From the IMG/VR virus record IMGVR_UViG_3300008111_000018, positions 57,903 through 121,902 of that record: DNA of 64,000 nt. One strand, 5' to 3'. The first letter of the stretch is position 1, and every line of letters begins with the position of its first letter. This DNA is from a virus. The position numbers were made by a program, and so were the translations under genes. Below, piece by piece: positions 54,939-61,420 of this stretch. The notes below the pieces were generated by a model that saw only the letters and a program-made list of their open reading frames with translations, had not been told where the DNA came from and ran no database searches.

Positions 54939-55000
54939 GGAAACATAGCTTAGTTGGTAAAGCATTCGACTGATAACTGGTTCGAGTCCAGTTGTTTCCA
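54939..55000 (+). pseudogene. Damaged tRNA-Ile(GAT)
   Basis: Acceptor GGAAACA/TGTTTCC, D-arm and T-arm ACTGG-TTCGAGT-CCAGT are complete, and the 5' anticodon stem with loop CTGATAA is present. The 3' side of the anticodon stem and the variable loop (about 11-12 bases) are missing; total 62 nt. It cannot fold as a normal tRNA. Confidence 0.8.
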
Positions 55001-55516: not shown

Positions 55517-55545
55517 TTGACAGATTCTTTAGAGTCTGTTACTAT
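55517..55545 (+). promoter_or_regulatory. Host-type promoter with spacer inverted repeat, copy 1
   Basis: TTGACA-17-TACTAT. The spacer is ACAGATTC-TTTA-GAGTCTGT, a hairpin or operator. The same element recurs at 56899; a variant is at 57075. Confidence 0.8.
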
Positions 55546-56648: not shown

Positions 56649-56892
56649 TTAAAAATCAGATTCCCATAAACAAATTAAAAAATTTACTTGATTTGATTGC
56701 TTTACCATTCTATCAAGTTTTTGCATTTCGCATCTTTTTTTAGCAGCAATTTTTTGTCTTTCTCTAGTTTCATCTGATATTTTTCTTCCAGTCATTCTAT
56801 CTGATATTTTTTTCCTATATTCTGGAGTTCTATAAGATTGTGCTGCTTCTCGCATTTTTCTTTTAGTTTCTTCAGAATGCTTCTTTCCTTTA
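56649..56892 (-). pseudogene. Remnant of a NUMOD3 homing endonuclease
   Basis: The minus frame encodes SKGKKHSEETKRKMREAAQS then YRKKISDRMTGRKISDETRE, two NUMOD3-type repeats normally at the C-terminal side of GIY-YIG or HNH endonucleases. The catalytic part is missing; the frame is cut where the promoter copy at 56899 begins. It is the only minus-strand gene remnant in the window and overlaps nothing else. Confidence 0.75.
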
Positions 56893-56898
56893 GATGCT

Positions 56899-56927
56899 TG
56901 ACTGATTCTTTAGAGTCTGTTACTATA
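56899..56927 (+). promoter_or_regulatory. Host-type promoter with spacer inverted repeat, copy 2
   Basis: TTGACT-17-TACTAT. The 40 bases from GATTCTTTAGAG to AAAGTGATAG are almost identical to the element at 55517, so this is a duplicated promoter. It drives tRNA-Leu. Confidence 0.8.
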
Positions 56928-56991
56928 TAAAAGTGATAGAGGGTAAGTCACTGTTATATCCTTATGAGATATATCACACTTACTCCATCAA

Positions 56992-57073
56992 GTCGATGTG
57001 GCGGAATTGGTAGACGCGCTGGGTTTAGGTTCCAGTAGATTAATCTGTGGAGGTTCAAGTCCTCTCATCGACA
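56992..57073 (+). tRNA. tRNA-Leu(TAG)
   Basis: 82 nt with long variable arm, acceptor GTCGATG/CATCGAC, anticodon arm CTGGG-TTTAGGT-TCCAG. The D region contains GTGGCGGAATTGG. Confidence 0.95.
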
Positions 57074-57074
57074 C

Positions 57075-57103
57075 TTGACAAACTATCAAAAGTTTGTTAC
57101 TAT
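57075..57103 (+). promoter_or_regulatory. Host-type promoter with spacer inverted repeat, copy 3
   Basis: TTGACA-17-TACTAT with the spacer repeat ACAAACT-ATCAAA-AGTTTGT. The repeat sequence differs from copies 1 and 2 but the geometry is the same. Drives the hairpin array and following tRNAs. Confidence 0.78.
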
Positions 57104-57115
57104 ATAAAAAACAAA

Positions 57116-57173
57116 TCCTAAAATCTAAAAGGTAGAAGTTTATAACTTGTAGGTTCGAATCCTACTTTGGGAA
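57116..57173 (+). pseudogene. Degenerate tRNA-like gene
   Basis: A perfect T-arm GTAGG-TTCGAAT-CCTAC is followed by TTTGGGA, which can pair with TCCTAAA at 57116. Between them only 26 bases are left instead of about 41, with a collapsed arm AAGTT-TAT-AACTT. Not a functional tRNA; identity unknown. Confidence 0.6.
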
Positions 57174-57325
57174 TTGGCAATTATAGAACCGCCACTTTAT
57201 AATTGCCAAATCGGTATCTATGGAACGGCCATTCTGTAGATGCCAAACCTAGCAACTAAAGAACCGCCATTCTGAAGTTGCTATAACTTGGAAAACACAA
57301 AACACCGCCACGTTTTGTGTTTTCC
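57174..57325 (+). ncRNA. Tandem array of four hairpins with conserved ACCGCCA-type loop
   Basis: H1 57174-57209, 12-bp stem TTGGCAATTATA. H2 57213-57244, 9-bp stem with G-T pairs. H3 57250-57283, 8-bp stem TAGCAACT. H4 57290-57325, 14-bp stem GGAAAACACAAAAC. The stems differ completely, yet the loops read ACCGCCAC, ACGGCCAT, ACCGCCAT and ACCGCCAC, mostly preceded by GA. Different stems with kept pairing and constant loops are the mark of a selected RNA structure. It lies between a promoter and tRNA-Gly, so it would be transcribed with tRNAs. No known family recognised. Confidence 0.8.
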
Positions 57326-57329
57326 TCCT

Positions 57330-57401
57330 GCGGAGTTAGTTCAGCGGTAGAACGCTATCCTTCCAAGTTAGATGTCGTCGGTTCGATTCCGATACTCCGC
57401 T
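57330..57401 (+). tRNA. tRNA-Gly(TCC)
   Basis: 72 nt, acceptor GCGGAGT/ACTCCGC, anticodon loop CTTCCAA. One mismatch in the anticodon stem (CTATC/GTTAG). Confidence 0.92.
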
Positions 57402-57439
57402 CTTGGTAGTCCCTAGCGATTAACTAGGTAGACGCCAAA
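57402..57439 (+). other. Hairpin spacer
   Basis: CCTAG-CGATTAA-CTAGG, a 5-bp stem with a 7-base loop like an anticodon arm, enclosed by TTGG...CCAA. Not a complete tRNA. Confidence 0.5.
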
Positions 57440-57508
57440 GGAAGTTAAGTCAAAGAAACGAGACAAGCAGACAATGCCCTTTGAACTGGTGTAAGTCCAG
57501 TAACTTCC
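57440..57508 (+). ncRNA. tRNA-sized structured RNA with non-canonical arms
   Basis: 69 nt. GGAAGTTA pairs with TAACTTCC like an acceptor stem; ACTGG-TGTAAGT-CCAGT is a 17-base T-arm equivalent, but the loop is not TTCRANY. The remaining part can form TCAAAG...CTTTGA enclosing a 23-base purine-rich stretch. No anticodon arm is visible. Could be a decayed tRNA or another RNA. Confidence 0.5.
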
Positions 57509-57514
57509 TTATAA

Positions 57515-57587
57515 TGGGGTGTAGCTCAGCGGTAGTAGCGGGATGCTGTTAACATCTAGGTCGCAGGTTCGATCCCTGCCGCCCCAG
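57515..57587 (+). tRNA. tRNA-Asn(GTT)
   Basis: 73 nt, acceptor TGGGGTG/CGCCCCA, anticodon loop CTGTTAA, T-loop TTCGATC. Confidence 0.94.
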
Positions 57588-57590
57588 TTG

Positions 57591-57682
57591 AAAGGACTTA
57601 GGTTCTTTCATAAGAATCGGGACTATCATATCCGATTCACTAAATCCTAAGTTTGCTTAGGTCGGGGACTTGATCACCCCCG
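57591..57682 (+). other. Hairpin-rich spacer between tRNA-Asn and tRNA-Val
   Basis: Contains GAAAG...CTTTC, GAATCGG-GACTATCATAT-CCGATTC, CCTAAG-TTTG-CTTAGG and CGGGG-ACTTGATCAC-CCCCG in series. In addition ACTTAGG near the start can pair with CCTAAGT, so an alternative fold exists. No ORF. Confidence 0.6.
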
Positions 57683-57687
57683 TTAGA

Positions 57688-57759
57688 GGGCGATTAACTC
57701 AGCGGTAGAGTGCCTCCTTTACACGGAGTAGGTCGGCGGTTCGAATCCGTCATCGCCCA
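57688..57759 (+). tRNA. tRNA-Val(TAC)
   Basis: 72 nt, acceptor GGGCGAT/ATCGCCC, anticodon arm CTCC-TTTACAC-GGAG. Confidence 0.95.
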
Positions 57760-57776
57760 TATATAAAGTAAAAAAT

Positions 57777-58106
57777 ATGATATACAAAAGACCTTGGGGA
57801 ACTTATGAAATTCTTCTAGAAGAGGAAAATTATAAAGTTAAAAGAATCGTAGTTAATCCTTATCAGCAGTTCTCTCTACAGTATCACAATCATAGAGATG
57901 AGTACTGGACTATTGTTGATGGATCTGGAAAAGTAATTATTGATGGAACTGAATACTCAACTTCTTCAAAGACTTCATATTATATACAAAAACAATCCGT
58001 TCATAGAGCATCTGCCGACAGTGATGGTCTGACCTTTATTGAAGTTCAGGTTGGTAAGTGTGATGAAGATGATATAGTAAGATTGCAAGATGACTATGGA
58101 AGATAG
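57777..58106 (+). CDS. Cupin protein, mannose-6-phosphate isomerase type
   Basis: A 109-residue single cupin domain. RPWGTYEILLEEENYKVKRI and FSLQYHNHRDEYWTIVDGSG carry the metal-binding HxH...E, and ADSDGLTFIEVQVG the last strands. It matches the C-terminal domain of type II mannose-6-phosphate isomerase/GDP-mannose pyrophosphorylase. Alone it could isomerise fructose-6-P to mannose-6-P, fitting the GDP-mannose epimerase at 61483. It starts 17 bases after tRNA-Val. Confidence 0.88.
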   Translation: MIYKRPWGTYEILLEEENYKVKRIVVNPYQQFSLQYHNHRDEYWTIVDGSGKVIIDGTEYSTSSKTSYYIQKQSVHRASADSDGLTFIEVQVGKCDEDDIVRLQDDYGR

Positions 58107-61294: not shown

Positions 61295-61420
61295 GTGGTG
61301 GAGTCAAAATGACCCCTATGAGTTTCTTGCTTCTCTCAAGAGCAAGTGGTGCGGATGGGACTCTCTCCCGCCTGGTTTCCAATTTCCAGTCAAAGAATTG
61401 GTGGCGAGCCTGAATTGCGA

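Follow-up and report, generated by a model that had tools for sequence, protein, structure and literature searches.

The protein sponges CsrB and RsmZ are built from several hairpins that differ in their stems and display one loop motif, with GGA in most loops. Tandem RNA units also occur in type III toxin-antitoxin (TA) systems (ToxI, antiQ, TenpI, CptI), where near-identical repeats lie beside a toxin gene, and in the C. difficile AbiF RNA antitoxin RCd22, in which two tandem hairpins neutralise the toxin protein by direct binding (PMC12373285). Spacers of tRNA precursors can be put to use as well: in E. coli, 3'ETS-leuZ is freed by tRNA processing and works as a sponge (PMC7154689). In phages, the RNAs GOLLD and ROOL, of unknown function, are found beside tRNA islands (PMC12286853). 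Here we describe four tandem hairpins with a common loop in the tRNA array of a viral contig and compare them with these systems.

The 64,000-nt window that we analysed forms the last part of a viral contig of 121,902 bases. As judged from a wcaG RNA (RF01761) at 61318-61415, 20 tRNA genes called by ARAGORN and the nearest neighbours, S-SRM01 and S-CREM1, its source is a T4-like cyanophage. Between a tRNA-Leu (anticodon TAG; 56992-57074) and a tRNA-Gly (anticodon TCC; 57330-57402), both assigned by ARAGORN to the + strand, lie a promoter, a tRNA-like element and the hairpin array, in this order. The host-type promoter of the original prediction was recovered as a sigma-70-like TTGACA-N17-TACTAT with a TG before the -10 box (57075-57103), and its spacer holds the inverted repeat ACAAACT atcaa AGTTTGT; this promoter type is also present in more than 75 cyanophage contigs. 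Downstream of it we found a shortened tRNA-like element of 58 nt (57116-57173) that was absent from the earlier description. It has a 7-bp acceptor stem (TCCTAAA/TTTGGGA, 57116-57122 with 57166-57172), a perfect T-arm, degenerate D and anticodon arms and the discriminator A57173, and was recognised by its fold and by a score of 23.5 bits against the Rfam tRNA model, under the gathering score of 29; the same model left the hairpins unmatched. The array itself (57174-57325) exactly fills the remaining gap, with hairpin 1 beginning right after A57173 and hairpin 4 ending 4 nt before the tRNA-Gly, which it had correctly been said to precede.

Four tandem stem-loops with the predicted loops at a common place were borne out on the + strand, with a unit spacing of 37-41 nt. 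Their dimensions had to be revised: in place of stems of 12, 9, 8 and 14 bp, we found 14 bp including one G-U pair in hairpin 1 (57174-57209; loop ACCGCCAC at 57188-57195), 12-13 bp including three G-U pairs in hairpin 2 (57213-57244; loop ACGGCCAT at 57225-57232), about 12 bp in hairpin 3 (57250-57283; loop ACCGCCAT at 57263-57270) and a perfect 14 bp in hairpin 4 (57290-57325; loop ACCGCCAC again, at 57304-57311). Full pairing, also claimed for each stem, does not hold for hairpin 3, which contains a 2x2 internal mismatch (A-A, A-G). A search for intrinsic terminators (stem-loop plus T run) returned no terminator-like site in 57174-57330, and a promoter score of hairpin 1 on both strands was dismissed as a by-product of its AT-rich palindrome.

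The RNA fold of 57174-57330 gave exactly four hairpins at -63.9 kcal/mol, compared with -26.9 +/- 3.4 kcal/mol for shuffles (z = -11). Four stems of at least 11 bp are observed, and mononucleotide shuffles of the stretch reached a maximum of two (6 of 2000). When the four units were aligned without gaps, 9 of the 12 stem pairs had changed on both sides while 95.8% of the cells were paired; this covariation, measured among four units within one array, three of them related, was matched by none of 500 shuffles and stood far above every slid control. The stems had been described as having no sequence in common, which is true of hairpin 4 but not of the other three. The arms of hairpins 1-3 share 7-9 of 12 bases, and compensatory changes are seen among them, so these three are diverged tandem duplicates, to which the stem of hairpin 4 is unrelated. 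Read on the + strand, to which the promoter and the tRNAs also belong, all four non-Watson-Crick pairs of hairpins 1 (one) and 2 (three) are G-U; the fold of the - strand is rearranged and weaker (z = -6). The restriction of G-U pairs to the + strand and the poorer fold of the - strand therefore favour an RNA read from the + strand over a DNA cruciform.

The loop reads A-C-S-G-C-C-A-Y throughout, varying only at positions 3 (C/G) and 8 (C/U). A possible pair between its outer A and U would reduce the loop of hairpins 2 and 3 to a hexaloop CSGCCA (CGGCCA in hairpin 2), and in hairpins 1 and 4 the outer positions are A and C. The loop core is unchanged among hairpins 1-3, whose stem arms differ at 4-5 of 12 positions, and hairpin 4 carries the same loop despite its unrelated stem. 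In 4.4 Mb of fetched DNA, an ACSGCCAY loop on a stem of score at least 8 occurred twice outside the array and its second copy (see below), both times in a scan preselected for that loop. Taken together, the compensatory changes, the G-U pairs confined to the + strand, the folding z score and the invariant loop core support selection on RNA structure plus loop, as had been proposed.

Related cyanophage contigs, gathered via neighbouring proteins and via the promoter motif, offer a view of the site with and without the array. The empty site, represented by 16 distinct sequences from 23 contigs, consists of tRNA-Leu, a short TTGACAATCAAACTAAAATAGTTTATGATTGTC-type promoter and, directly after it, tRNA-Gly, and in S-CREM1 the slot behind the corresponding tRNA-Leu is occupied by a manA RNA (RF01745). 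The array is thus a cassette inserted into the tRNA array. Among the matches listed, its sole other carrier is the IMG/VR contig 3300027793_001204 (L006), in which the hairpins are 100% identical, the 436 nt corresponding to 57075-57510 differ by one base and the flanking genes are about 91% identical. Because near-identity over 436 nt stands against roughly 9% divergence of the flanks, the cassette is carried by two different phage strains and was exchanged recently; the identity between the window and L006 reflects this exchange and provides no evidence of constraint. The suspicion that the array might be an assembly product can be laid aside, because the identical block lies in an independent contig of another strain.

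Further homologous units, for which the original prediction had proposed a search of phage and cyanobacterial genomes, were almost entirely absent. A covariance model of the array (R1) found only the window and L006 among 166 fetched sequences (82 + 84) and 46 whole records, and across 386 cyanobacterial genomes it returned no homologue, only AT-rich palindromes, loop-less sequences and single weak matches with no array. Scans of IMG/VR and GTDB for the tandem-loop pattern yielded no array besides L006 among the matches listed, and the remaining matches fell in protein-coding sequence or consisted of direct repeats lacking hairpins. A scan for loops of the hairpin 4 type gave 96 stretches and no array, and blastn of the array against phages and plasmids gave no match. 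The lack of homologous units even in close relatives, which would have counted against the original prediction, is thus nearly complete in the sequences searched; it is L006, together with the covariation within the array, that sustains the finding. In Rfam 15 at E<=10 there was no credible family for the hairpins (mir-290 alone, 17.2 bits, E 2.1, far under the cut-off), in support of the claim that they belong to no known phage RNA family. The array looks like a real, undescribed RNA, structurally well supported and phylogenetically almost an orphan, for which we propose a function below.

Compared with the described systems, the array has in common with CsrB and RsmZ the design of many hairpins displaying one loop, but its ACSGCCAY loops lack GGA and it has no match in Rfam. 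Like type III TA repeats it consists of tandem RNA units of similar length, but its stems vary where those repeats are near-identical, and no toxin gene adjoins it; the first gene past the array, beyond three tRNAs, encodes a ManA-like cupin by ORF inspection. CRISPR arrays combine identical repeats with unique spacers, whereas these hairpins have differing stems and only the loop in common. GOLLD and ROOL are hundreds of nucleotides long and contain pseudoknots, and the array in the window is unmatched. The manA RNA that takes the same slot in S-CREM1 is a multi-helix RNA of 192 positions; no manA match was obtained in 56880-57780 at E<=10, with S-CREM1 (L002) as a positive, and no wcaG match was obtained in this interval at the same threshold. 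By eye, loops 1 and 4 show a short complementarity to GUGGCG of the wcaG RNA.

Spacers in the tRNA arrays of S-SRM01 (L001, 5842-5878) and S-CREM1 (L002, 6402-6438) hold the abiF RNA (RF03085), which is likewise a small hairpin RNA (37 nt) with a conserved loop. It differs from the array in loop, stem and length and comes as one or two units rather than four, and the abiF model, positive in both phages, did not match the array at gathering or at E<=10. No abiF protein is annotated within the approximately 12 kb fetched around these abiF hairpins, which are candidate antitoxin decoys. The E. coli 3'ETS-leuZ provides a precedent for a tRNA spacer working as a sponge, the role that we propose for the array, although the leuZ spacer sponges sRNAs and contains no tandem hairpin array.

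Of the three functions originally suggested for the hairpins, a sponge or decoy fits best. We tentatively propose that the array is a structured RNA cassette, excised from the tRNA precursor, which would act as a multivalent decoy for a host factor, a reading that we consider quite possible without relying on it. Transcription from the promoter at 57075 would cover the array together with the tRNAs, and host tRNA maturation would cut it out by 3'-end cleavage past the tRNA-like element and by RNase P at the tRNA-Gly. Such excision is plausible because the array abuts the tRNA-like element on one side and the tRNA-Gly on the other, and because it exactly spans the distance between them, tRNA processing is predicted to yield an RNA of about 155 nt, which should be released provided that the tRNA-like element can still be recognised. 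The array is indeed placed between tRNA processing sites, of which the 5' one hangs on this degenerate element, and with its score of 23.5 bits the element may escape processing. The product would carry four stable hairpins, each showing the core C(C/G)GCCA as a hexaloop above a closing A-U or A-C, and would titrate a host factor with affinity for the loop. Because loop position 3 tolerates C or G, the ligand is more likely a protein that binds RNA, perhaps a toxin or a nuclease of a defence system, than an RNA. Four copies of one loop on stems too different to mispair are what a multivalent binding array would be expected to show. We also count in favour of a decoy that other tRNA-array spacers contain compact RNAs whose loops are constant while their stems diverge, and that the abiF RNA hairpin, whose C. 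difficile relative binds a toxin protein, is found in such spacers. Much less probable, in our estimation, is the wider proposal that the array stands for a new class of phage RNA, multivalent loop-display RNAs that are cut out by host tRNA enzymes and block an RNA-binding host protein, either a toxin or one involved in defence, and that it is one of several exchangeable anti-host RNA cassettes in cyanophage tRNA arrays.

The loops could instead form kissing pairs with RUGGCSGU in an RNA of host or phage origin, which would make the array an sRNA sponge or an antisense set. Loops of 8 nt on stable stems are well suited to kissing; moreover, complementarity exists between loops 1 and 4 and positions 7-13 of tRNA-Leu (GUGGCGG, 7 nt) and between loop 2 and UGGCCG of tRNA-Ser (positions 8-13, 6 nt), and the reverse complement of the loop reads a start codon followed by Ala (RTG GCS). 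We nevertheless regard such pairing as unlikely: permuted loops equal the tRNA complementarity in 12% of trials (p = 0.12), sense matches of the same loops occur in tRNA-Gln and tRNA-Arg, no RUGGCSG(U) target in 1.8 Mb of mostly cyanophage sequence was conserved beyond the tRNAs, and loop 2 mispairs centrally with the target of the other loops. A role as antisense to the D-arms of class II tRNAs (Leu, Ser), striking at first, was dropped at the same p value. The set of small antisense RNAs suggested originally found no support, with one loop differing centrally and no target standing out. A search of phage DNA and phage tRNAs for pairing partners of an sRNA sponge gave no convincing target. 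Distinctly unlikely, too, is a special case of the decoy, in which the array is an RNA antitoxin or defence decoy mimicking the RNA that a host toxin or defence nuclease takes as its partner (type III TA, AbiF-like or CRISPR-type). The abiF RNA is present in the tRNA arrays of S-SRM01 and S-CREM1, and the hairpins of these sister phages may act in this way; the spacing of the units resembles the 34-50 nt of type III antitoxin repeats (PMC12373285), and insertion and exchange of a cassette would suit an arms race. Against this, the stretch matches no Rfam RNA family at E<=10, its units are far from near-identical repeats and the 386 cyanobacterial genomes held no host homologue.

It is also conceivable that the hairpins are a passive spacer by which maturation of the neighbouring tRNAs is protected or timed, or exonucleases are blocked, the likeness of the loops being a remnant of tandem duplication. 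The relatedness of hairpins 1-3 and the position between the tRNA-like element and the tRNA-Gly are in keeping with this, but stems that have drifted around a constant loop core, the same loop on the unrelated stem of hairpin 4 and relatives that manage without an array make it improbable. Processing signals for the tRNA precursor, the last of the original suggestions, became less likely because these tRNAs are also processed in relatives that lack the array. To a DNA-level element, with palindromes serving recombination, replication or protein binding, we assign hardly any probability. Recent exchange of the cassette and the presence of palindromes in a module-swapping array speak for it, yet a constant centre with variable arms is the opposite of a palindromic protein site, and the G-U pairs of hairpins 1 and 2 would be A-C on the other strand.

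The array is not alone in its design. A leader RNA, GATAGAGGTTAAGTCACTGTTATATCCTTATGAGGTATATCACACTTAATCCATC, stands behind an inverted-repeat promoter (TTGACA-IR-TGTTACTATATAAA) at 56898-56990 of the window, with a partial copy near 55517, and recurs at more than 80 places in IMG/VR loci (e.g., L292, L297 and L001). Across 15 aligned variants its outer helix was 100% paired, with compensatory changes at 5 of the 7 outer pairs, and the copies searched had no Rfam match; it probably represents an RNA, so far undescribed, that belongs to the tRNA arrays of cyanophages. A triple-hairpin spacer RNA at about 6250-6320 of L001, found also in L302, L322, L326, L338, L346 and L368, has the invariant loops CCTCTAAT, AGTGTC and GGGCACTC on stems that covary, with double changes at 6 of 21 pairs. 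Its second and third loops are complementary to each other and could form a kissing pair, and the L001 copy lacks an Rfam match. The triple hairpin and the leader RNA share the array's combination of constant loops and variable stems, which makes the array, itself rare, one of a larger group of spacer RNAs that can be exchanged.

Several other features of the region are worth recording. In the promoters at 55517, 56898 and 57075 and their relatives, the spacer between the -35 and -10 boxes is an inverted repeat whose arms covary from copy to copy (AAACT/AGTTT, AGATTC/GAGTCT, AAATTC/GAGTTT), forming either a putative regulator site or a putative RNA 3'-end structure. Behind the tRNA-Gly, the spacer at 57404-57510 is structured (z = -2.9) and common to L005, L006, L347 and L364; further on, the spacer at 57588-57687 folds into four hairpins (z = -3.7), one of which, GGGGACTTGATCACCCCC, recurs in many relatives. 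An ORF on the - strand (56649-56855) resembles, by eye, NUMOD3-type repeats of homing endonucleases and is possibly a remnant beside the array. A tRNA at 54939-55000, possibly shortened, was missed by ARAGORN and scores 50.3 bits in Rfam.

If the array is a decoy, its C(C/G)GCCA loop would be a bait with which to capture a protein that binds RNA or serves defence in cyanobacteria. Spacers within the tRNA arrays of cyanophages are suggested to be swap sites for small structured RNAs, most of them absent from databases, and such swapping suggests a reason besides codon use for which these phages may keep their tRNA arrays.
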